Source: Calothrix sp. NIES-4105 (lineage in GTDB: Bacteria > Cyanobacteriota > Cyanobacteriia > Cyanobacteriales > Nostocaceae). From it: a DNA stretch of 64,000 bases. The position numbers and the translations under genes were made by a program. This document shows positions 2,045 through 16,449 of the stretch, piece after piece. Location of the stretch: positions 5,407,614 through 5,471,613 of the forward strand of contig NZ_AP018290.1 in the NCBI RefSeq assembly GCF_002368415.1, read 5' to 3'. Every line of letters begins with the position of its first letter. Positions within the stretch are counted from its first letter, which is position 1. Under the pieces are notes generated by a model that worked only from the letters and a program-made list of their open reading frames with translations, was not told the DNA's origin and searched no databases.

Positions 2045-2659
2045 ATGGATATTACCCATTTGTTCCAAACTCTAACTACTCATAACCCGCGCGCTTTCCA
2101 AACACAAACTATTACTCGCATCCTCAACCACCAAAATACTCTACTTCGGGCGCCTACTGGTTCAGGAAAAACTGAGACGGCAATAGCACCGTTTCTCTTT
2201 GCGAAAGCTTTTGACCTCGACTTTCCCCAGAAATTAATCTATGTTGTTCCTTTACGTACTTTGGCAAACAGCTTACGTCAGCGAACAGAAGAACTAGTGC
2301 AGCAATGGGCGCCATTACATAAACTACCCCGTCCTATTGTGGTGACTTTGCAAACAGGGGAAAACCCAGAAGACCCACGTTTTGAGGGTGATATTGTTTT
2401 TTGCACTATTGACCAGATGTTAAGCAGCTTTTTAAATATCCCTTATTCGGTTGGTCGTGGTTCTGCTAATATCAACGCAGGCACCGTGTTTGCGTCTTAT
2501 TTGGTGTTTGATGAGTTACACCTTCTTGACCCTGAGCGTTCATTTACAACTGTTTTGAAAGTTTTGCAGCAAGTTAAGGGTATTTCACCGTTCCTGTTGA
2601 TGACTGCGACTTTAACTGATGAGCTTGCAAGTCAAATTAAAAATATCGTAGATGTTTAA
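2045..2659 (+). CDS. cas3: Cas3 helicase, N-terminal RecA lobe (split gene, part 1)
   Basis: This frame encodes the first RecA lobe of a superfamily 2 Cas3 helicase: APTGSGKTE (Walker A, residues 36-44), VVPLRTLA (motif Ia), VFDELHLLDPE with the DExH-type box near residue 156, and LLMTATLTD (motif III, near 185). There is no N-terminal HD domain. I chose ATG 2045; an in-frame TTG at 2006 would add 13 residues. The frame stops at 2657-2659 just after motif III, and the missing lobe starts 108 bases later in another frame at 2767. Cas3 unwinds and degrades DNA bound by Cascade. This is a disrupted cas3, unless the halves reassemble as two subunits. Confidence 0.88.
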   Translation: MDITHLFQTLTTHNPRAFQTQTITRILNHQNTLLRAPTGSGKTETAIAPFLFAKAFDLDFPQKLIYVVPLRTLANSLRQRTEELVQQWAPLHKLPRPIVVTLQTGENPEDPRFEGDIVFCTIDQMLSSFLNIPYSVGRGSANINAGTVFASYLVFDELHLLDPERSFTTVLKVLQQVKGISPFLLMTATLTDELASQIKNIVDV

Positions 2660-2696
2660 TATGTTGGAATTTGAAATCTTTATTAAAAATCCGCGT

Positions 2697-2726
2697 TGTA
2701 GAGACGCGAAATTTCGCGTCTCTACA
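2697..2726. repeat. 30-bp perfect palindrome between the cas3 halves
   Basis: The arms TGTAGAGACGCGAAA and TTTCGCGTCTCTACA make an exact 30-bp palindrome. It lies in the stretch of about 110 bases (2657-2766) that separates the two cas3 frames and that looks non-coding. An almost identical copy is at 51238-51267. No target-site duplication is obvious at the borders of the inserted stretch. Confidence 0.85.
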
Positions 2727-2766
2727 TTTACGTGGTTTATAAATTAATCAGGGATACCATATACAA

Positions 2767-4815
2767 ATGGAAATTATCCAATTAGAAAACACTGACTTAC
2801 AACAAATTGAAGCAAACCGTTGTCGTACTTTCCGCGTGCTTTCTGAACCTCTGACAGCACAAGTTATTTGGGATGACATCCGCGCGCATCAACGCCAGCG
2901 AGTGATAGTTATTTGTAACACTGTCTCTTTTTCACAGGCATTATATAAAGATTTAGAAGCACTCGACAATGACTTTAAACTAAATATTACTCTGCTTCAT
3001 TCGAGGTTTTTGCCTGAACATCGCGCGGCAAAAGAGTCTTTTCTTAAAGAAGCATTTGCTAAAAATTGGAAATTACATGATACAGGCGCCTGCGAAGTGT
3101 TAATATCTACACAGGTTATTGAAGCGGGAATCAATATTACCTGTGAAGTTATGCATGTTCAGCTTTGCCCGATGAACTCGCTACTGCAACGCGCGGGACG
3201 TTGTGCAAGGTTTAGCGGTGAACAAGGAGAGGTTTTTGTTTATCGAACAGTAGAAGTTAATCAGAATTATGTAGAATTAGCTGAGGCGGATATTGACTCA
3301 GAAGATAATCAAGATAAGAAAATTAGCTTTTTGCCATATCCTAAAGAAACATGTGAGCTAACTTGGCAAGTACTACAAACACATACTAATTCCGAAAATG
3401 TACATCAAAACGTTGGTTTTAGGCTTGAGGAACAATGGATAAATCAAGTTCACACACAAGAAGATTCTCTCGAACAAAAGCGTAGGCAAGATAGTCGGAT
3501 GGAGTTTGAAAGAAACTTTGAAGATGCTGTTTTTAAAGGAGACGAGCATACTGCACAAGAATTAATACGTAAGGTTGATAGTCGCAGTATTTTTACTTGG
3601 GATAACTCAATTATTACAGATTTTGATACAGAAACTATTGACCCAAATAAATTATTGCCTTTCTCAATTCCTATATCTACTTTATGCAAAGCTTTGCGAG
3701 ATTTTAAAGAAAGTCTACACTTTGGCGATGATTGGATTTTTAAACGAATTGAGGCGCCGCAAAAAGACAAATCAGAAACTTACGCAGAACCTAATTGTAC
3801 ACCAATTACTTCGCGTGATTTCTTAGTTAGCAGCATTAGGATATTAGTTAACCCTCGATATATTGCCTATGATGAGCATATTGGATTGCAAATAGGTATA
3901 GATGTATTTGGTAACGGTTTTGAATCACCTGCCAAACAAGATAAAGAGGTGACTAGCCAGTACTGCTACAAAATGGATAATTATGTAGGGCATTTAGTAT
4001 TAATGTGGAAATGCTGGTGCCAACCTTTCACAACCACTATCATCAAAAATAGTACATCTGAAAAAATTACCTACATCAGCGCGCGGGAAGAACTATTAAC
4101 AGCAGGTGGAAAATTCATCAAAGCTAAAATTTTTCCCGAAGCAACACAAAGTCAAACAGAAGCATTGTTTGAAATATTAGTATTCTTAGCAATCTTTACC
4201 CACGACTTAGGCAAACTGCAAACTAAATGGCAGCAAGTCATGCGAGGATGGCAACAAATAGCTCATCAACAATTTAAAAAAACAAACCCCAGAAACCACC
4301 TACTAGCACATACTGACTACAACCCAGAAGACAAGCAGCAACAGCAAGCACTAAAAATTTACGAACGTAAAAGCAAACGTCCCAACCACGCAGTTGAAAG
4401 CGCTTTCCTCGCACAAGAAATTCTCAAACAATCTTTAGAACCGCTATTAGGCGCCGAATTTAACGCCGACACTGAGCAAATTAAACACATTTACTACACA
4501 GTAATTATGGCAACAGGGCGCCATCACTCAGCTTGGGCAAGTGGATGGAATAATAAAGACATAGCAAAGCTTCGCACTATAGAACTACATCCAGAAGCAC
4601 AGAAAGCAATAGCTCAAAGTTGGCGAAGCATGATAAAATTTTTACCTCAAACCTTACCCTTATCACAACCAAATTTAAAACGTAACCTCTACCCGCTCAA
4701 AGAACTCGACTTAAACAAATTTGCAAACGACGAAGTAGAATACTTCCAACTATATCTATTAATAGTCAGGGCACTGCGCCTATGCGACCAAAGGGCTGTA
4801 CAATTGTTACATTAA
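2767..4815 (+). CDS. cas3: Cas3, second RecA lobe plus C-terminal HD nuclease (split gene, part 2)
   Basis: The 682-residue frame continues the helicase: VIVICNTVSF, LLHSRFLPEHRA, STQVIEAGINI (motif V, near 114) and QRAGRCAR (motif VI, near 140). After a long middle region it carries an HD nuclease-like domain: FLAIFTHDLGKL with His-Asp near 479-480, HAVESAFLAQEI, and ATGRHHSAW near 582-590. The HD domain is therefore C-terminal, the reverse of the common Cas3 order (HD then helicase). Together with part 1 it would form a protein of about 885 residues. The ATG at 2767 is the first start codon after the inserted stretch and has no clear Shine-Dalgarno. The C-terminal HD assignment rests on motif order and spacing, not on a profile search. 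Confidence 0.88.
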   Translation: MEIIQLENTDLQQIEANRCRTFRVLSEPLTAQVIWDDIRAHQRQRVIVICNTVSFSQALYKDLEALDNDFKLNITLLHSRFLPEHRAAKESFLKEAFAKNWKLHDTGACEVLISTQVIEAGINITCEVMHVQLCPMNSLLQRAGRCARFSGEQGEVFVYRTVEVNQNYVELAEADIDSEDNQDKKISFLPYPKETCELTWQVLQTHTNSENVHQNVGFRLEEQWINQVHTQEDSLEQKRRQDSRMEFERNFEDAVFKGDEHTAQELIRKVDSRSIFTWDNSIITDFDTETIDPNKLLPFSIPISTLCKALRDFKESLHFGDDWIFKRIEAPQKDKSETYAEPNCTPITSRDFLVSSIRILVNPRYIAYDEHIGLQIGIDVFGNGFESPAKQDKEVTSQYCYKMDNYVGHLVLMWKCWCQPFTTTIIKNSTSEKITYISAREELLTAGGKFIKAKIFPEATQSQTEALFEILVFLAIFTHDLGKLQTKWQQVMRGWQQIAHQQFKKTNPRNHLLAHTDYNPEDKQQQQALKIYERKSKRPNHAVESAFLAQEILKQSLEPLLGAEFNADTEQIKHIYYTVIMATGRHHSAWASGWNNKDIAKLRTIELHPEAQKAIAQSWRSMIKFLPQTLPLSQPNLKRNLYPLKELDLNKFANDEVEYFQLYLLIVRALRLCDQRAVQLLH

Positions 4816-4848: not shown

Positions 4849-5065
4849 AACAATCAGCTTGATGTTTCGTAAACCGAAGCGAGGTCAAAAACCCTAGGGG
4901 TTTCACGAAATTGCCTATAACCTAGACAAGATAATAATCACAGCATTTACAGCTTTGCAATAACTGCAAATAACTCTCAACAAGCGCGGCTGAAATCGAC
5001 TCAATTTAGGCACTTACGAAAATCCTTTCTGGAATCCTTACTCTGTAACCTTCGTAGCGCGCGGC
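4849..5065 (+). promoter_or_regulatory. CRISPR leader of array 1
   Basis: This AT-rich, ORF-free stretch lies between cas3 and the first repeat. It is clearly homologous to the stretch before array 2: both contain ATCAGCTTGA, TTTCGTAAA, CGAAGCGAGG and AAAAACCCTAGGGGTTTCAC near the distal end, CACGGCTGAAAT or CGCGGCTGAAAT in the middle, and GCGCG just before the repeat. Leaders direct spacer insertion and drive pre-crRNA transcription, so this orients both arrays as transcribed on the plus strand. Confidence 0.75.
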
Positions 5066-5463
5066 CTTGAAACCTTACGAATCCCGTCTTCGGGACTGAA
5101 ACACTTAACTACCATTACTTTAGAACCAGCAGATGATAGTCTTGAAACCTTACGAATCCCGTCTTCGGGACTGAAACCAGCAACCTCCCTCGCCACTTCC
5201 AAAGGCGCCTTCTCTTGAAACCTTACGAATCCCGTCTTCGGGACTGAAACGATATTTTATAAATTGATATTTCTTACTCGTATTATCTTGAAACCTTACG
5301 AATCCCGTCTTCGGGACTGAAACGAACTACCATCCATCTGATAAGGTTTAAATTTATCAGCTTGAAACCTTACGAATCCCGTCTTCGGGACTGAAACCCT
5401 GCATCATATGTATCCCACGTCAACCAATTATGCTTGGGCTTGAAACCTTACGAATCCCGTCTT
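5066..5463 (+). CRISPR. CRISPR array 1: five full repeats and one truncated repeat
   Basis: A 37-nt repeat starting CTTGAAACC and ending GGGACTGAAAC, with an internal CCCG-TCTT-CGGG stem-loop, occurs at 5066, 5141, 5214, 5287 and 5361. A sixth copy at 5439-5463 keeps only its first 25 bases. Spacers are 38, 36, 36, 37 and 41 nt. The repeat differs from array 2 at a few positions (including the loop) but keeps the stem. The truncated end joins directly to coding sequence of another gene, so the distal part of the array was lost. No spacer matched the rest of the window by eye. Confidence 0.97.
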
Positions 5464-5682
5464 GCAACAAGCCATTTTATTGGTGATTGGTCAGACCCTT
5501 TGTGTAAATACTCAGACGCAGCAATGCACAAAAGTTGTTTTCTTAATTGGGATATGCGAGAAACATTTATTGCTAGATATAATGAAGTGATGAAATCGTA
5601 TAGAGCAGAAGATTGGGAAGTTAGAACTTATCTATATATGATGCCTGATGGTAGTATTGAACAACGAAAACACGCGGTTTAA
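5464..5682 (+). pseudogene. 3' remnant of an unrelated gene fused to the CRISPR array
   Basis: Immediately after the broken repeat the frame encodes about 72 residues (GDWSDPLCKYSDAAMHKSC, then FLNWDMRETFIARYNEVM, ending EQRKHAV) that look like the C-terminal end of a real protein with conserved Cys, His and Trp positions. The only Met start upstream (5434) lies in spacer and repeat sequence. It is most simply read as a gene whose 5' part was deleted together with the end of array 1. The family was not identified. Confidence 0.6.
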
Positions 5683-6462: not shown

Positions 6463-6489
6463 CCCCTAGTTGCACCTAGGGGTTTTCTT
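6463..6489 (+). terminator. Terminator-like hairpin, second copy
   Basis: The stem CCCCTAG/CTAGGGG with loop TTGCAC is followed by TTTTCTTA. It corresponds to the hairpin at 547-571 and marks the upstream limit of the duplicated segment. The ATG of the downstream gene lies 23 bases after the hairpin. Confidence 0.7.
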
Positions 6490-6505
6490 AATTTAATTAT
6501 ACAGT

Positions 6506-6823
6506 ATGGACACCATTGTTTACCCAACTTATATACGTTTAATAGTCCGAACTTCAAATTGTTGGCGCTTTGTTAAGGGCGAGCGTTTTTACAACCCTTA
6601 CAACTTTCCTGCTCTTGATCAAGAAAATTTGTTTCGGTTTCTTGGTTTAACCATGAAGCAGGTAGCAAACGAACTCAGAAAAATCAACAATGCGGCGCCT
6701 GGTTATTATCTTGCTGATATTGTTGAAAGAAAGTACTACTACTGTGGTACTGAGTGGGACGATGTTAAACGCACTTTACGACAAGAATTAGGTATTGGGC
6801 GCCTTGACCCCTTGGTGGAATGA
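6506..6823 (+). CDS. Small paralogous protein, copy 2 (full length)
   Basis: The 105-residue protein (MDTIVYPTYIRLIVR at the N terminus; FLGLTMKQVANELRKINNAA at 45-64; IVERKYYYCGTEWDDVKRTL near 71-90; ending LGIGRLDPLVE) is the longer of two paralogues, the other lying at 586-867. No known family was recognised. The two copies are direct repeats about 5.9 kb apart and flank the Rpn-type gene, cas3 and array 1. The conserved second half suggests a folded domain. There is no clear Shine-Dalgarno and the gene begins directly after a terminator-like hairpin, so expression may depend on read-through or a leaderless transcript. Confidence 0.6.
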   Translation: MDTIVYPTYIRLIVRTSNCWRFVKGERFYNPYNFPALDQENLFRFLGLTMKQVANELRKINNAAPGYYLADIVERKYYYCGTEWDDVKRTLRQELGIGRLDPLVE

Positions 6824-7353: not shown

Positions 7354-9123
7354 ATGCTACGATTATTCATTTCCAAGAACTACGGCAATTATGCTGACAC
7401 GTTTTTAATGTTGGGTTTAGCGCGCGTTGTTGAATATGCTCTCAAGGTGACTAACCAAAAAAGCGGTATTCAACTTATTGATGAGGGGACGCGCTATTGT
7501 ATCCAGTTTAAGAAGAGTGTGAATTTAGAACCGATAGCTAAAATCACGTACACTTCCCCTTTCCCAGTTGTGAAGGGACAAAAAACGGATATTAGTAAGA
7601 TACCAGAGGAGGCAAACATTTTTAATACTGTTGAACATAATGAAATTCGCAAGGTTTACCGCGAGTTTATGTTTCAACGGGGTAAACGAACGGAAGAATC
7701 ACCACAACCTCCAGACTATAGAACTCAGAATGGCGCCATCTTAACTTCGATGCGTCATGACCGTAACCATAATGATTTATGGCTAGTTGGTTGGGAACTT
7801 AGAGATTATTTCGGCGCCTTAATTGTTGCGCTGTGCCAAGGTTTTAGCCAGGAGAATACTACAACTGAACTCGTTGCAGAGTTGTTTAAAGCTTCAACTG
7901 GATGTAAGTTACCTGATGCTAGTGCGGTGAAGGTTTATTTACCTACTTCTGTTCAGGGAGTTAACAGAGTTAAAGCAGACAGTAATAAAGTTGATTCGCA
8001 AAAAACAGATTGGTTGAGTTTATGGTTAATTGCCAATGGCTTATTTAACTTTGCTGTTGCGGAACGAGTCAAAATTGCTGAACGTGTTTATGACTGGCGC
8101 CTGGTTGCGTTACAGCCTCAAGATATATCTTTGAGTAAATACGACGATGTTTTAAAGCAGCTATTAATACATAATTTACCTGGAGGTGGACACGGCGCCG
8201 CGCGGTTTGATGCAGAGTTGGTAATCAGGTTTTGTCAGGAATTACTCAATCATCACCGTGCAGCGAATGAACAAGATGACTGGGATAAACCAGTAAATCA
8301 CTTTGTTAGTAACTTTGCTGGCACTCACTTTGGCGCCAAAGGTCAAGTTTATGGAGTCAAAGAAGTCTTTAGTTTAGGACTTCCCGCTTGGGTATATCCT
8401 CGCAACTACAATGAATTACTTGATTACCAAAATGTATTAGACGAACATCTCAATGTAGTCCGCGCGCTTTCTCTTGATGAAGGTCATAGCGAATTAATTG
8501 CTGCATATCGGGATTTTATTACTGGCAATGATTTATACCAGTTCTTCCGCTTTCAAGTTAGCTATGCCGATTATATTACTAAGATGGCAGGCGCCAATGC
8601 TAGGGTTGCACTTTTTTCTAAACAGGGGCTTAATTTAATGTTAAAGAATTTAAATAATAAGTACCGTCAAGATGACCGCGAATGGTCTTTAACTGAAATT
8701 ACTCAAGACTCAGGATTTTTGAATATTGCCAAAGCAATTAATAGCGCTACTGTTTATGCTGGCACTATTCGTGATAAAGATAATCAAAGTAAAGATACTG
8801 GTTGGGAAAGAATTTATGGTTTGGCACAGCGTTTAATTAGTCAATCTGGTTCTAAAAAGGATTTTATTATTGAAATCATGTCGTTTCTTGCTAGCTATGA
8901 GAATGAGAATCTGCGTATTGACGATGAGTTACGGAAATTGAAAAAACCTCGTCGCATTTGGACGACGAAAGATGATTTGGATAGGTTGATTAATTTGATT
9001 GATAATCATGGCTCTAGTTTGGTGGCTAATCTTTTAATTGCTTATGGGTATGCAAAAGGTTGGGGTAAAGCAAAGGATGAGAAAGAGCAAACAGAGGAGA
9101 GTTTAGTTGAATGCGTTAATTAA
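7354..9123 (+). CDS. cas8: Putative large Cascade subunit (Cas8-like, family not recognised)
   Basis: The 589-residue protein occupies the position of the large Cascade subunit directly before cas7-cas5-cas6. The N terminus (LRLFISKNYGNYADTFLMLG) and other parts (SMRHDRNHNDLWLVGWELRD near 130-150; LPGGGHGAARFDAEL near 275-289) did not remind me of a named Cas8 or Cas10 family, and I see no HD, palm-domain GGDD or zinc-finger CxxC pairs. Assignment is therefore by context. In type I systems this subunit recognises the PAM and recruits Cas3. An acidic Lys/Glu-rich C terminus ends EQTEESLVECVN. Start ATG 7354 is preceded by a weak AAAGG. Confidence 0.72.
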   Translation: MLRLFISKNYGNYADTFLMLGLARVVEYALKVTNQKSGIQLIDEGTRYCIQFKKSVNLEPIAKITYTSPFPVVKGQKTDISKIPEEANIFNTVEHNEIRKVYREFMFQRGKRTEESPQPPDYRTQNGAILTSMRHDRNHNDLWLVGWELRDYFGALIVALCQGFSQENTTTELVAELFKASTGCKLPDASAVKVYLPTSVQGVNRVKADSNKVDSQKTDWLSLWLIANGLFNFAVAERVKIAERVYDWRLVALQPQDISLSKYDDVLKQLLIHNLPGGGHGAARFDAELVIRFCQELLNHHRAANEQDDWDKPVNHFVSNFAGTHFGAKGQVYGVKEVFSLGLPAWVYPRNYNELLDYQNVLDEHLNVVRALSLDEGHSELIAAYRDFITGNDLYQFFRFQVSYADYITKMAGANARVALFSKQGLNLMLKNLNNKYRQDDREWSLTEITQDSGFLNIAKAINSATVYAGTIRDKDNQSKDTGWERIYGLAQRLISQSGSKKDFIIEIMSFLASYENENLRIDDELRKLKKPRRIWTTKDDLDRLINLIDNHGSSLVANLLIAYGYAKGWGKAKDEKEQTEESLVECVN

Positions 9124-9206: not shown

Positions 9207-10151
9207 ATGAAAAACACAAATTTTCTTGCTTACTCTATTTCCATCAGCGGTCTGCTATCCTGGCAACTTCATGCTTTGAATAACGAAGGAAACGAGGGAA
9301 ATCAATCTTTGACTCGTCGCTTTTATATCATTCAAAAAGGGATGAGCGAGCCAGAATATGTAAATGGTGTTTCGGGTGATATGCTCAAACATATCCAAGC
9401 TGAACATTTACACAGAATTGCAATTGAAGAAGGATTGAGTTTATCTGAAGGTGGTAAACTATTTAATCCTGATAGAATTGGATATGATATTGAGAAAAAT
9501 CTGCCCATATTTACAGATAAAGATGCTGGTTTAGGCGCCAAAACTCATAAAGTTCTCCAGCGCTGTACTATGAGTGACTTGGAAGGGTTTATGGTAACGG
9601 TGAAAGGAGGGCAAACACTGAAACGCGAATCTGCTATTGAATTCGGCGCCATTGTTGGTTTACCTACTCTTGTGAAAACTCAGAGTTACTTTCATGCTAA
9701 ATACGGTGTTGAAAATCCTACTCCTTATAATGTTCAGGTAAGTTCAGGTTTATACGCTACTGTTTTGAATATTGAAGCTTTCCGCATTGGCTATAACCCC
9801 CACAATTTTAGCTATAGCATTGATGGCGCCGAGCGTAAAAAACGTTTAGATGCTTTACTCAAGAGTGTACTTTATACATACATGCAACCTAACGGTGCAA
9901 AGCGAAATACAAATTTACCTCACCCTGATTATTTTGAAGGAGTAATTACTGTAAGCACTCGTCGCTGTCCGGCGCCTATGCTTAGTCCTTTGGAAACTGA
10001 CTATCACCGTCAAATTTATAGTTTGGCTGATACTTTGAATAATCTTAACGGCGCCGATACTATTTGCTGCTTTGATTTTGAGTCAATGGCTCAGTTTGCT
10101 GAAAAAATTCAAACAATTATTGCACTAGCACAGCCTTGGGAAAGTGAATAA
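9207..10151 (+). CDS. cas7: Cas7, DevR/Csa2-type Cascade backbone protein
   Basis: The 314-residue product shows the N-terminal pattern of DevR/Csa2/Cst2-type Cas7 proteins: a first strand (LAYSISISGLLSW), then LHALNNEGNEGN and, near residue 55, VNGVSGDMLKHIQAEHL, the G.ML.H.HAEHL signature. Further conserved parts are RCTMSDLEGFMV and a C-terminal DTICCFDFES. Cas7 polymerises along the crRNA spacer. I start it at ATG 9207; the upstream in-frame extension (from 9165) is encoded by a GGTGGGCATTGCCCACC hairpin repeat and is unlikely to be translated. The DevR-like type fits subtype I-A or I-B relatives. Confidence 0.88.
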   Translation: MKNTNFLAYSISISGLLSWQLHALNNEGNEGNQSLTRRFYIIQKGMSEPEYVNGVSGDMLKHIQAEHLHRIAIEEGLSLSEGGKLFNPDRIGYDIEKNLPIFTDKDAGLGAKTHKVLQRCTMSDLEGFMVTVKGGQTLKRESAIEFGAIVGLPTLVKTQSYFHAKYGVENPTPYNVQVSSGLYATVLNIEAFRIGYNPHNFSYSIDGAERKKRLDALLKSVLYTYMQPNGAKRNTNLPHPDYFEGVITVSTRRCPAPMLSPLETDYHRQIYSLADTLNNLNGADTICCFDFESMAQFAEKIQTIIALAQPWESE

Positions 10152-10259: not shown

Positions 10260-11012
10260 ATGAGATTAACTACTAATAGTTCCCCTCTCCTCGCAGGAGA
10301 GGGGTTAGGGGAGAGGTGGTTAACAGTCATTTATCAACCCGTAAGTTTATTTTCCCTGAAACGTTACGATGCTACCAGTATGGCCGTGCGCTCTAATTTA
10401 ATTCCGACTCCATATGCAATTAAAATGGCACTGTTAAAAGTGTTGCTCGAAAGTCAGGGAAAACACCATGAAAATGACTTCGACTTGTGGATAAAACACC
10501 AGTTTATCTGGATTCGTGATTTACATATATATGTGATGCCACCAGAACAGTTAGTGGTAAATCGTAACGGTTACAAACTGCGTTATTATGACCAAACCGC
10601 AGATAAAGCCGATAAAAGTCGCACGACTATACCTATGCAAGATGGTTTTGTATTTCGAGAATGGATACATTTACAGGGAGACTTACAAATTTGCTGCGGT
10701 AAGACAACGCGACTTGATGAACTTACACAGCTATTTGCCCAAATTAATTATTTTGGTAAACGAGGTTGTTTTTTCCAGTTTCTACCTGGCGCCACTCAAG
10801 AAACTTCCGAACCTATGTTTACATCTGACCCCAGCACCAGTTTTACTATTCAACCAATGGATGACTTGGGTAAAAAGACTACCTTCAACCGTATAAATCC
10901 TTTCTCCAACGAAAAAGCTCAACTCCATAAAGACAGGATAATAGAACCTGGATATTTACCTTTACAACTTCGAGCTACTGGCGCCCGTTATGACTTCTAC
11001 CAAAGATACTAG
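10260..11012 (+). CDS. cas5: Cas5, Cascade foot subunit
   Basis: The body begins VIYQPVSLFSLKRY and continues IPTPYAIKMALLKVLL (near residues 48-63), the Cas5-typical start (first strand of the RRM-like fold, then the P.PYAI helix). Cas5 caps the crRNA 5' handle. The only ATG that keeps this strand is 10260, but the first 20 or so residues are encoded by a CCCCTCTCCTCGCAGGAGAG-type repeat (10279-10318); the conserved part starts at a GTC/ATT pair near 10326, and the next Met (10381) would cut into the fold. The N terminus thus looks repeat-derived. The C-terminal end overlaps cas6 by 23 bases. Confidence 0.83.
   Translation: MRLTTNSSPLLAGEGLGERWLTVIYQPVSLFSLKRYDATSMAVRSNLIPTPYAIKMALLKVLLESQGKHHENDFDLWIKHQFIWIRDLHIYVMPPEQLVVNRNGYKLRYYDQTADKADKSRTTIPMQDGFVFREWIHLQGDLQICCGKTTRLDELTQLFAQINYFGKRGCFFQFLPGATQETSEPMFTSDPSTSFTIQPMDDLGKKTTFNRINPFSNEKAQLHKDRIIEPGYLPLQLRATGARYDFYQRY
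10279..10318. repeat. C-rich/G-rich hairpin repeat inside the cas5 5' end
   Basis: A CCCCTCTCCTCGCAGGAGAG hairpin followed by GGGTTAGGGGAGAGG is the same family as at 13752-13793 (between cas1 and cas2) and 56711-56763 (inside the UvrD-like gene). Confidence 0.65.
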
Positions 11013-11997
11013 TACACATTTTGCTGGACTAAGCGTTGTTTTACGGCCTACCCAAACAGTATGCGACGCTACCCCCTTAACATCTTGGTTGCCAAATGAA
11101 TTATTTCCTGCTTGGATACCTCAACGGTATATAGATGGCGTTACAAAGATTATGCCTGTATTGCCACAACCTGCTTTGTATGAAAGCTTGATGCAATGTA
11201 TTATAGGGCAAATCGGTAGTAATAATCTGGTGGAATGGCGCCAAAAACCCTACGAATTAACAGGAGTAGAAGTAAATAACAATTCTTTACATAGCATTCA
11301 AGTATCAATCAACCCTGTTAGTCCTCTTCCTCCTACCATTGCACGCGCGGTTCATGCTTTGTGCTTCCACTGGTTTGCCAAAACAGACCCTACTTTAGCT
11401 CAAACATTGCACGAACAAGAAAATTTACCAATGACTACAGGAATAGAGTATTGCTCCGCTAAAAAGATATTGCTCAAAATCAACTTATTGCAAAAAGAAT
11501 TACTGGCGCCGCTACTATGGGGAATGAGTTCAGATTTAGGCAATGAGATTAGTATAGCGGGAATACCTTGTAGGTTAAATACTTGGGTTGACGTAGTGCA
11601 AGCAAGTAGCTATGAAAAACTCATGCAAGTACCTGCCCAGAACTTTATACAATTAGAATTTCTCACCCCCACAAGTTTTAAACAAGGCAAATATATCCAA
11701 CCATTCCCATTATTAGAACTAGTTTTTAACGGTTTGCTGCGACGCTGGAATAAATTTGCCCCAGAAAACTTACACTTTCCCCAAGTTGAATGGAACGGTT
11801 TAGTTTCTGCTTACGAACTCAAAACCCATGCGATGAAAATGGAAGGAGGAGGAGAAATAGGCGCCGAAGGTCGGGTAAAATACCGTTTTGCTTCTTCAGA
11901 ACAAGCCAAAATTGCCACCGTCCTAGCGCATTTTGCCTGCTTCGCTGGAGTTGGACGCAAAACCACAATGGGAATGGGACAAACAAGAATCAGTTAG
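10990..11997 (+). CDS. cas6: Cas6, pre-crRNA endoribonuclease
   Basis: The 335-residue protein has the paired ferredoxin-like layout of Cas6 and ends with the Gly-rich loop GVGRKTTMGMGQ, the RNA-binding signature before the C terminus. A central region reads FLTPTSFKQGKYIQPFP, the usual T.F...g....P.P segment of the Cas6 C-terminal domain. Cas6 cleaves the repeat below the CCCG/CGGG stem to leave an 8-nt handle, here probably GACTGAAAC-proximal. The ATG overlaps the end of cas5, indicating translational coupling. The stop codon comes from the first TAG of a TTAGGAG heptamer run. Confidence 0.9.
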   Translation: MTSTKDTSTHFAGLSVVLRPTQTVCDATPLTSWLPNELFPAWIPQRYIDGVTKIMPVLPQPALYESLMQCIIGQIGSNNLVEWRQKPYELTGVEVNNNSLHSIQVSINPVSPLPPTIARAVHALCFHWFAKTDPTLAQTLHEQENLPMTTGIEYCSAKKILLKINLLQKELLAPLLWGMSSDLGNEISIAGIPCRLNTWVDVVQASSYEKLMQVPAQNFIQLEFLTPTSFKQGKYIQPFPLLELVFNGLLRRWNKFAPENLHFPQVEWNGLVSAYELKTHAMKMEGGGEIGAEGRVKYRFASSEQAKIATVLAHFACFAGVGRKTTMGMGQTRIS

Positions 11998-12172: not shown

Positions 12173-12766
12173 ATGATAGAAAACTATTTACCTCTAGCTT
12201 ATCTAAACGCTTGGGAATATTGCGCGCGCCGATTTTATCTAGAATATGTGTTGGGCGAAATGGAAGACAACGAACACATTATATTAGGGCGCCATATTCA
12301 CCGCAATATCAACGAAGAAAGCATACTCACTGAAGGTGATACTGTAATTCGGCAGCAGCAATGGGTATGGAGTGACCAATTAAAAGTAGCGGGTATTATC
12401 GACGCTGTTGAAGAGTGTAATGGTCAACTAGTGCCAGTTGAATATAAAAAAGGCAAAATGGCACAACATTTAAATGACCATTTTCAACTTTGTGCTGCTG
12501 CTATATGTATAGAAGAACGCACTGGACGTAGTATTCCTTATGGTGATATTTTTTACCACGCCAATAGAAGACGAGAAACAGTAGCTTTTACACCTCAGCT
12601 TCGACAAGCTACCGAACAGGCAATTTTACTTGCTCAAAATGCCGCTACTGGCGCCATGCCTTCACCAATTAACAATACCAAAAAGTGTCAATCATGTAGC
12701 TTGCAAAGAATTTGTTTGCCCTTTGAAGTTAAAGCATTACGCGCTCATAACCAATCACAAATATAA
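12173..12766 (+). CDS. cas4: Cas4, Fe-S PD-(D/E)XK exonuclease of adaptation
   Basis: The 197-residue protein carries all Cas4 marks: the first Fe-S cysteine in NAWEYCARRFYLEY (near 17), the RecB-type core GIIDAVEE with a following VEYKKGK (D-...E-x-K), QLCAAAICIEE (QxxxY-like helix) and the C-terminal cysteine cluster CQSCSLQRIC (near 175-184). Cas4 trims prespacers and selects PAM-side orientation together with Cas1-Cas2. The gene is followed after 7 bases by cas1, so the two are co-translated. Length matches stand-alone Cas4. Confidence 0.93.
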   Translation: MIENYLPLAYLNAWEYCARRFYLEYVLGEMEDNEHIILGRHIHRNINEESILTEGDTVIRQQQWVWSDQLKVAGIIDAVEECNGQLVPVEYKKGKMAQHLNDHFQLCAAAICIEERTGRSIPYGDIFYHANRRRETVAFTPQLRQATEQAILLAQNAATGAMPSPINNTKKCQSCSLQRICLPFEVKALRAHNQSQI

Positions 12767-12773
12767 AATAAAA

Positions 12774-13751
12774 ATGACTGTTCTTTACGTTACTCAACCT
12801 GAAGCTGTTCTCAGTAAAAACTACGAAGCCTTTACTGTTGCACTCAAACAAGAAGATGGAACTTGGAGCAAAAAAAGTATTCCTGCCCAAACGGTAGAAC
12901 AAGTTGTGCTTATGGGCAATCCCCAAGTTACCGGAGATGCTTTAGTATATGCTCTAGAATTAGGAATGCCTATACATTACCTTTCCCCATTCGGTAAATA
13001 CTTAGGCTCTGCACTTCCGGGACACTCACGCAACGGGCAATTAAGACTGGCGCAATATCAAGTTTATAACGATGCAGTTCGGCGCCTGGAATTAGTCAAA
13101 GCAATAGTTACAGCAAAAATTCACAATCAATACCTAATTTTATACCGTCATAACGAACGAAATAATCCCCTTAAACAACGTAAAAACCAAGTTCAAAGCC
13201 AGCAAAATATCGACCAAGTGCGAGGAATTGAAGGTTTAGCAGCACGAGAATATTTTGCTTGTTGGGACAGAATGGTTGGTAAACAATGGACTTTTACTGG
13301 TAGAAATAGGCGCCCACCAACTGACCCTGTAAATTCACTTTTAAGTTTTGCCTATGGTTTATTACGAGTTCAAGTTACAGCAGGTGTTCATCTTGCCGGA
13401 CTTGACCCTTACATTGGTTACTTACACGAGGTTCATCATGGACAACCTTCGATGGTCTTAGATTTGATGGAAGAATTCCGTCCCTTAATTGCCGATAGCG
13501 TAGTGTTAGGAATATTACGTCAAGGTGAAATTAAACCCAATGATTTTACTGAAAGTTTAGGTGCCTATCAGTTGTCTGAATCTGGAAGAAAGTGCTTCTT
13601 AGAGGCATTTGAACGTAAGATGAACGATGAATTTAAGCACGCTGTATTCGATTATAGGTGTACGTATAGACGCGCGGTAGAACTACAAGCACGGTTGCTA
13701 AGTCGGCATTTACAAGAAGGTACTCCTTATAAACCTTTGATTTTAAGATAA
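12774..13751 (+). CDS. cas1: Cas1, spacer integrase
   Basis: The 325-residue protein starts MTVLYVTQPEAVLSKNY; an upstream in-frame extension to 12630 overlaps cas4 and is not needed. Active-site regions are clear: IEGLAAREYF with the metal Glu near residue 153, and GYLHEVHHGQPSMVLDLMEE with the catalytic His near 217 and Asp/Glu near 230. Cas1 forms the Cas1-Cas2 integrase that inserts spacers at the leader end. RRPPTDPVNSLLSFAYGLL is the usual P.N..LSF.Y.ll helix. The type I clade fits the neighbouring genes. Confidence 0.96.
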   Translation: MTVLYVTQPEAVLSKNYEAFTVALKQEDGTWSKKSIPAQTVEQVVLMGNPQVTGDALVYALELGMPIHYLSPFGKYLGSALPGHSRNGQLRLAQYQVYNDAVRRLELVKAIVTAKIHNQYLILYRHNERNNPLKQRKNQVQSQQNIDQVRGIEGLAAREYFACWDRMVGKQWTFTGRNRRPPTDPVNSLLSFAYGLLRVQVTAGVHLAGLDPYIGYLHEVHHGQPSMVLDLMEEFRPLIADSVVLGILRQGEIKPNDFTESLGAYQLSESGRKCFLEAFERKMNDEFKHAVFDYRCTYRRAVELQARLLSRHLQEGTPYKPLILR

Positions 13752-13843: not shown

Positions 13844-14137
13844 ATGACTACACTGTTTTATCTAATTATTTACGACTTACCAGATAACAAAGCAGCTAAT
13901 AGGCGCCGGACTCGCTTGCATAAAATGCTCACTGGTTATGGAACATGGACACAATACAGCGTATTCGAGTGCTTCTTAACTGCGGTAAAATTTACTCAGC
14001 TACAAATAAAAGTAGAAAAATTAATCAAGCCCGATGAAGACTCCGTGCGAGTATATGTATTGGACGCTGGGTCTGTAAAGCGAACCATTACCTATGGCTC
14101 AGAAAAACCTAGACAAGAACAAGTAATCGTTTTATGA
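13844..14137 (+). CDS. cas2: Cas2, adaptation nuclease-fold protein
   Basis: The 97-residue ferredoxin-fold protein starts LFYLIIYDLPDNKAANRRRT, where the Asp after the first strand (YDLPD) is the family's conserved acid, and continues GTWTQYSVFECFL and VRVYVLDAG. Size and motifs are typical for Cas2, which bridges two Cas1 dimers. It is the last cas gene, 92 bases after cas1 and directly before the leader of array 2. Confidence 0.95.
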   Translation: MTTLFYLIIYDLPDNKAANRRRTRLHKMLTGYGTWTQYSVFECFLTAVKFTQLQIKVEKLIKPDEDSVRVYVLDAGSVKRTITYGSEKPRQEQVIVL

Positions 14138-14357: not shown

Positions 14358-15617
14358 CTTTAAACTTTACGAATCCCGTTATCGGGACTGAAACTTCTAT
14401 TGCGGTGCAAGCCGCATTGACGACACTTACCTTTAAACTTTACGAATCCCGTTATCGGGACTGAAACTCCCCAAAAATATCCTGCACCAATTTTAACAGT
14501 GGACTTTAAACTTTACGAATCCCGTTATCGGGACTGAAACCCCACGTGCCTTGTTCATCAAGCTTGTCTCCACCTTCTTTAAACTTTACGAATCCCGTTA
14601 TCGGGACTGAAACATCAAACGATGCAAGGAAAAACACTATCGATAAAACTTTAAACTTTACGAATCCCGTTATCGGGACTGAAACATAACACTTAACTTT
14701 TAGGCAACTATACTATCACATGGCTTTAAACTTTACGAATCCCGTTATCGGGACTGAAACGTACTTACGCATCTGGCCCGCCAAAACTTACAGTCACTTT
14801 AAACTTTACGAATCCCGTTATCGGGACTGAAACAGATTACAAGCTAGTGCAGGTGGAGTAATCGCGCACTTTAAACTTTACGAATCCCGTTATCGGGACT
14901 GAAACTCATCTACTAATACCCAATCACTAGACTTATCTAGCTTTAAACTTTACGAATCCCGTTATCGGGACTGAAACGTTTTGATTGGCAACCGATTGAT
15001 AATACTAAACCTGCTTTAAACTTTACGAATCCCGTTATCGGGACTGAAACTCTAACTGAAGGTCAAACTTAGTAAGAGGTTCCAACTTTAAACTTTACGA
15101 ATCCCGTTATCGGGACTGAAACATACAAAGCCCGATTAACCACTATTATCATCGTGGCTTTAAACTTTACGAATCCCGTTATCGGGACTGAAACGTTTCC
15201 CAGCTTCTACATCGCCCCTAGACGCTCGCCTTTAAACTTTACGAATCCCGTTATCGGGACTGAAACCGTATTTTAACCTTGCAAAGCGGAACTGTAATTG
15301 GCTTTAAACTTTACGAATCCCGTTATCGGGACTGAAACCTTCCAAACAGATAATTCCATATACCGATGCCATTTCTTTAAACTTTACGAATCCCGTTATC
15401 GGGACTGAAACCTGATTGCCGATAGCCCAATCATCAAAAGCAAATAACTTTAAACTTTACGAATCCCGTTATCGGGACTGAAACTGTTATCTGTAGTTTA
15501 CAAAGTACGGCTCTGCACCTTTAAACTTTACGAATCCCGTTATCGGGACTGAAACATTACTCTAATTCCTGAACTGGGATGTGCTGCTGGCTTTAAAACT
15601 TACGAATCCTGATATCG
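14358..15617 (+). CRISPR. CRISPR array 2: 17 full repeats plus degenerate terminal repeat
   Basis: A 37-nt repeat starting CTTTAAACTT and ending GGGACTGAAAC with a CCCG-TTAT-CGGG stem-loop occurs 17 times without visible change, from 14358 to 15555, with spacers of about 34-37 nt. An eighteenth copy at 15591 is degenerate (CTTTAAAACTTACGAATCCT, then GATATCG) and marks the distal end. The decay at the 3' side and the leader on the 5' side agree on orientation. The perfect repeats suggest recent or maintained activity. Confidence 0.98.
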
Positions 15618-16418: not shown

Positions 16419-16449
16419 TGTAGAGACGCGATTAAATCGCGTCTCTACA
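16419..16449. repeat. Small palindromic repeat, TAGAGAC family
   Basis: Arms TGTAGAGACGCGATT and AATCGCGTCTCTACA flank a single A, giving a perfect 31-bp palindrome. Confidence 0.8.

Follow-up and report, generated by a model that had tools for sequence, protein, structure and literature searches.

A cyanobacterial cas3 divided between the RecA lobes of its helicase: probably an inherited two-gene arrangement with a palindrome as a later passenger

The window analyzed here, a 64,000-nucleotide stretch of the Calothrix sp. NIES-4105 genome, carries on its plus strand a cas3 that is spread over two genes in different reading frames. The first, cas3N (2045-2659), begins with an ATG at 2045, ends with a stop codon at 2657-2659, and encodes 204 amino acids with the C-terminal residues LLMTATLTDELASQIKNIVDV; the second, cas3C (2767-4815), begins with an ATG at 2767 and encodes 682 amino acids. 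Profile searches placed the DEAD domain in cas3N (PF00270, 1.3e-19; TIGR01587, positions 2-176) and the Cas3 helicase C-terminal and HD domains in cas3C (PF22590, 4.3e-28; PF18019, 9.9e-6; TIGR01587, positions 219-356). The open reading frames and these domain matches bear out the claim of a first-pass annotation that cas3 breaks between its RecA lobes, with the parts in two frames, and the gap that it described between the parts is present, at 107 bases (2660-2766, no strand) rather than 110. Its claim that the helicase and HD motifs are intact on both sides held on inspection: RecA lobe 1, in cas3N, has motifs I, Ia, II, and III, including Walker A and DELH, and cas3C has motifs IV, V, and VI of RecA lobe 2, followed by a C-terminal HD nuclease with THDLGK and further histidines. 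The SF2 labels are what we take these motifs to be. The same motifs were found in relatives wherever the site was covered, with small substitutions. Both halves matched Cas3a1, Cas3g, and other Cas3 models; scored separately against the Cas3g model TIGR02621, they reached 89.6 and 97.9 bits, the cut-off of 400 being set for the whole protein.

Downstream of cas3C, all on the plus strand, lie CRISPR array 1 (5065-5463; five full repeats and a truncated sixth), a cas8a-like large subunit gene (7354-9123; PADLOC PDLC01417 Cas8a, 8.7e-35; no NCBIfam or Pfam match), cas7 of the DevR/Csa2 family (9207-10151; PF01905, 1.1e-51), a cas5a-like gene (10362-11012; PADLOC PDLC01390 Cas5a, 1.8e-60; no NCBIfam or Pfam match), cas6 (10990-11997; PF10040, 1.8e-21), cas4 (12173-12766; TIGR00372, 9.1e-36), cas1 (12774-13751; nearest to Cas1d, TIGR04093, 1.2e-123, scanned with a longer start than the 12774 that we chose by hand), cas2 (13844-14137; an open reading frame sharing 86% identity with the annotated cas2 of plasmid record L083), and CRISPR array 2 (14358-15561; 17 repeats, unlike that of array 1). 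The terminal truncated repeat of array 1 runs into an open reading frame (5434-5682). A small gene occurs twice, at 560-890 and 6480-6810, flanking the block of cas3 and array 1, with blocks 70% and 93% identical, and a gene for an Rpn-family PD-(D/E)XK nuclease/putative transposase lies upstream on the minus strand (961-1878). The array spacers gave no match to the phage collection that was searched.

Cas8a and Cas5a, the pair that serves as a criterion of subtype I-A, were the sole PADLOC families matched at 0.001. Cas7 scored 75.2 bits against TIGR02583 (Cas7/Csa2), whose cut-off is 212.6, and Cas1 and Cas4 were nearest to I-D models. The hallmark of subtype I-A, separate genes for a Cas3' helicase and a Cas3'' HD nuclease, was not what we found: the HD domain shares a chain with RecA lobe 2, and we therefore name the system I-A-like only. 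A cas8a match was present in the examined flank of 19 of the 28 named loci with a split cas3 (see below), some flanks being shortened by contig ends. None of the other cas genes of the set was found in the examined flanks of L034, L041, L043, and L063, and cas7 and cas5 were absent from the examined flank of L086.

To place the arrangement among relatives, we relied on several collections. A first search of 150 relatives gave matches in 51, many of them weakly similar helicases, and 24 loci from that search, the window's own among them, were compared at the border. A named collection of 45 loci was then sorted by its cas3 border. Twenty-eight are split like the window (L033-L045, L047-L053, L055-L058, L063, L064, L066, L070), eight are cyanobacterial loci with a fused cas3 (L054, L059-L062, L065, L067, L068), and five are fused and lie beyond the cyanobacteria (L071-L075; by title, four Chloroflexi and one Clostridiales); the remaining four were not classifiable, two ending at a contig end (L046, L069), one being a decayed fragment (L076) and one a distant helicase (L077). 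Another genome from the same genus as Tychonema LEGE 07203 has the split as well. Six of 386 genomes of the phylum, the window's own included, had a match at E 1e-30; one of these, L079, with an open frame of 917 aa, was left unsorted as split or fused.

The split is carried by plasmids as well. A plasmid collection yielded six cas3 matches, one identical to L055, and the remaining five, from Anabaena cylindrica PCC 7122, Nostoc ATCC 53789, Nostoc UHCC 0302, Allocoleopsis PCC 7113, and Planktothrix agardhii, are all split. With L048 and L055 this makes seven plasmid-borne split copies, six of which are in records titled complete (L048, L055, L083-L086); four of six plasmids were typed conjugative. 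Four of the plasmids (L083, L084, L085, L087) also have type III-like genes, either Csx19/RAMP or csm, upstream of the split cas3, with their ends at most about 5 kb from it. The five plasmid records annotate the halves as two ordinary genes, "DEAD/DEAH box helicase" and "cas3," and because one half of the enzyme is thus called a plain DEAD/DEAH helicase, surveys may miscount such systems. A sequencing or assembly error is almost certainly not the source of the break: some rows do come from contigs that are low-coverage by their record titles (L047, L052, L059), but the split recurs in many independent genomes with differing border sequences, including the six plasmid records titled complete.

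We compared the border itself across 35 split copies (the window, the 28 named loci, the five plasmid records, and L089). In all 35, cas3C starts with an ATG at the point where its similarity to the window protein sets in, a position at which none of the eight fused cyanobacterial homologues has a methionine. Counted from the last base of the cas3N stop codon to this ATG, the distance ranges from -20 to +382 nt: -20 in nine copies, -14 in six, +2 in seven, +11 in two, and 15, 17, 22, 51, 85, 96, 107 (the window), 120, 176, 264, and 382 nt in one copy each. The stop overlaps the start of cas3C in 15 copies and precedes it in the other 20, by +2 to +382 nt, and the frame of cas3C is offset from that of cas3N by 1 in 18 copies, by 2 in 12, and by 0 in five. 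The longer borders also differ in what they hold: L033 has half of the window's palindrome (described below), L035 a different stem-loop, L063 a fold-back, L041 a stretch read as MITE-like from its inverted ends, and Oscillatoriales USR001 (L053, 5570-6020) a complete PF16277 (DUF4926) gene between the halves.

These borders bear on whether programmed frameshifting or read-through could join the halves into one chain. Where the genes overlap by 20 nt (9 of 35) or 14 nt (6 of 35), a +1 shift could join the frames, and some of those lineages could still use one. However, the stop comes before the ATG in most copies, all three frame relations occur, elements and in one case a whole gene have been inserted between the halves, and the 107 nt in the window are beyond a simple shift. 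Given an ATG in every copy, distances from -20 to +382 nt, and three frame relations, no single recoding signal can join the halves, and we rejected recoding as a general mechanism; as an account of the window it is very unlikely.

A perfect palindrome of 30 bp had been reported between the halves and is indeed there, at 2697-2726 (no strand), inside the 107-nt border; it reads TGTAGAGACGCGAAATTTCGCGTCTCTACA, and the region 2657-2769 gave an RNA fold z of -6.45. It belongs to a dispersed family of GTAG-tagged, REP-like elements. The family was found at eight places in the window with no more than three mismatches, against 0.01 expected, and a second scan added places at 16421, 42037, and 50765, so that the earlier count of ten was about right. 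The exact 30-mer occurs 13 times in the 12.0-Mb genome and the pattern GTAGAGACG-N10-CGTCTCTAC 194 times, the reversed-pattern control giving 0 in each case. GTAG-tagged REP palindromes have been reported in filamentous cyanobacteria (PMC3733652), and the window's element resembles them, as far as that paper was available to us, in its length within 20-40 bp and its GTAG end, a likeness by description rather than by comparison with a consensus.

Did this element break the gene? The first-pass annotation had left a choice between recent inactivation and a tolerated two-chain Cas3. According to the former, the stretch with the palindrome interrupted a cas3 that had encoded one chain, so that adaptation and crRNA surveillance would persist without degradation; the position in the gap of a member of a dispersed family would fit, as would the damaged cas3C of nearby Calothrix strains. 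However, none of the 28 split named relatives has the whole palindrome, and only one, Calothrix FI2-JRJ7 (L033), has half of it. The result named in advance as refuting inactivation by the palindrome, the same two-gene arrangement with no palindrome, was thus obtained for 27 of the 28, near and remote relatives alike. We rejected the palindrome as the cause of the split on these grounds. With many related cyanobacteria split without it, the arrangement looks like an old inherited design and not like the recent disruption of a gene by a mobile repeat.

The closest relatives also suggest an order of events. In L034 and L070, close kin of the window, the border is 11 nt long; the excess over this length is 96 nt in the window and 74 nt in L033, and the two excess stretches are alignable, half of the palindrome being missing from L033. 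The short borders set against the longer ones indicate that the split predates the palindrome at this place, and since L033 has the insert with half of the palindrome lost, the insert is older than the divergence of these two strains, which stands at a dS of 0.49 for cas3N and 0.35 for cas3C. The best reading of these borders is that the palindrome is a later passenger, a dispersed repeat that entered an existing gene border, and not the creator of the split.

We estimated dN/dS on the window's own branch. In a three-point comparison with L033 and L034, the values were 0.126 [0.059-0.246] for cas3N and 0.179 [0.116-0.278] for cas3C, and with L035 and L034 they were 0.152 [0.061-0.444] and 0.205 [0.131-0.327]; pairwise values for a fused pair were 0.158 and 0.217. 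Synonymous distances were unusable for the branch estimates of L053 and, in cas3C, of L041 and L043. These ratios, which are not relaxed, indicate purifying selection on cas3N and cas3C alike along the window's branch, and together with the intact motifs they led us to reject a pseudogene in the window. Of the four closest relatives of the window, only L033 has an undamaged cas3C. Damage was seen in five of the 28 split named loci, the other three of these four included: an in-frame stop in L034 (aa 170) and L056, a frameshift in L035 and L052, and, in Calothrix HK-06 (L070, 6300-6460), a cut at aa 108 followed by a CRISPR array with repeats of the array 1 type. The damage does not follow the palindrome, since the undamaged copies at the level of the genus (the window and L033, two of five) are those that carry the insert. 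The NIES-4105 genome has two other Cas3 helicase genes, each in a single frame, at genome positions 9201298 and 3755911 (L091, L092), with a cas1 2.3 kb from one and 6.6 kb from the other, so a dead copy in the window might be tolerated. We conclude that recent inactivation is quite unlikely. Of the choice once offered, the two-chain Cas3 is the side that the sequences support, while inactivation by the palindrome stretch is left unsupported by the palindrome-free relatives and by the purifying selection; the further suggestion of a nuclease-less surveillance system finds no support in them, because the HD motifs are intact.

How often the split arose is less clear from the trees, in which columns were anchored on the window protein and the outgroup branches are long. 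A tree of 44 rows requires three changes between split and fused, with Tychonema LEGE 07203 and its genus-mate, both split, grouping with the fused Richelia CSU_2_1, a low-coverage MAG with another frameshift. A clade of the split rows alone was rejected on a 41-row tree that omitted L046, L066, L069, L076, and L077 (AU test, p 2.9e-7). On the 44-row tree, which also omitted L070, L074, and L075 and added L083-L087 and L089, a clade of the split rows plus Richelia CSU_2_1 was not rejected (AU p 0.378); nor was a clade of the split rows minus Richelia CSU_2_1 and the Tychonema pair (AU p 0.382). Both of these groupings were named after the tree had been seen. One origin with one re-fusion and two origins of the split both fit.

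We modeled the fused homologue of Scytonematopsis (L054; mean pLDDT 81.6, pTM 0.83). In this model the break maps to a loop between a helix (192-203) and a strand (212-215) at the junction of lobes 1 and 2, with pLDDT below 50 at 206-208. The top Foldseek matches were Cas3 proteins of solved structure; I-A Cas3 came in at ranks 20 and 21. Modeled alone, the window's cas3C reached a pLDDT of 68.0 and a pTM of 0.43; the weaker model would fit a need for a partner and proves nothing, since the alignments differ.

In SF2 helicases the motifs of both lobes act together. The halves are separate genes and might therefore encode chains with separate jobs, cas3N no longer being part of a helicase. However, the lobe 1 motifs (I, Ia, II, and III) are preserved in cas3N and those of lobe 2 (IV, V, and VI) in cas3C, and in none of the 35 split copies are the halves more than 382 nt apart, so that a division of labor of this kind is highly improbable. 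The Cas3 of this cyanobacterial type I-A-like system is thus probably inherited in its two-gene form, and its chains would be reassembled in trans, probably on Cascade. Each chain would start from its own ATG, cas3N giving RecA lobe 1 and cas3C giving RecA lobe 2 with the C-terminal HD nuclease. As neither holds a whole helicase site, the two must pair for a working motor; we infer that they would most likely do so while bound to Cas8 and Cascade, and that the paired motor would then nick and reel in the target DNA like an ordinary Cas3. Cas3 has been described, in the portions of the papers that we consulted, as an integral or stable component of Cascade in types I-A and I-G (PMC5965380, PMC9638904), and a complex of this kind could hold a divided motor and make the split tolerable. 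A more speculative proposal, which we regard as doubtful, is that the division itself is a safeguard: the SF2 motor would exist only when the separate lobes meet, and their meeting on a crRNA-loaded, target-bound Cascade would be the on-switch that guards against stray Cas3 activity.

The arrangement would be a natural split Cas3 whose assembly is directly testable, with a lobe-split helicase core kept across many cyanobacteria and on plasmids. It may show how Cas3 activity stays restrained until Cascade binds its target, and it indicates a point at which Cas3 could be cut to make split tools. In the literature searched, which covered few subscription papers, we found no description of a Cas3 broken between the RecA lobes; one published passage has a Cas3 in two parts and does not state the position of the break. 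The word "split" is absent from the main text of a 2025 classification paper (PMC12669027), and the portion consulted of a review from 2025 on type I systems of cyanobacteria (PMC11903412) has I-A only under distribution.

Among known systems, the single-chain Cas3 proteins with a C-terminal HD domain from Scytonematopsis (L054) and Lyngbya (L068), which are Cas3g-like, share the motifs and the RecA1-RecA2-HD order with the window. L068 and several others of the fused cyanobacterial loci have the same neighbor genes too, but theirs is one chain where the window has two. Type I-D has a Cas3' whose HD domain resides on Cas10d, and it resembles our system in its two-part Cas3 and in the I-D models nearest to Cas1 and Cas4; unlike in I-D, the helicase itself is divided in the window, and no match to Cas10d was obtained among the window genes scanned with NCBIfam and PADLOC. 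The type I-A Cas3'/Cas3'' pair is likewise encoded by two genes and accompanied by Cas8a and Cas5a, to which the window's partners are similar, but that known split separates the helicase from the HD nuclease, whereas the window's break falls between the RecA lobes, which are not joined in one chain, and leaves HD with lobe 2. Reviews, in the parts consulted, likewise describe a Cas3 divided into helicase and HD parts (PMC10212523, PMC5965380, PMC11127173, PMC7074321). Relative to the divisions described in these sources, which set helicase apart from nuclease, what appears new here is a helicase core divided between its own RecA lobes.
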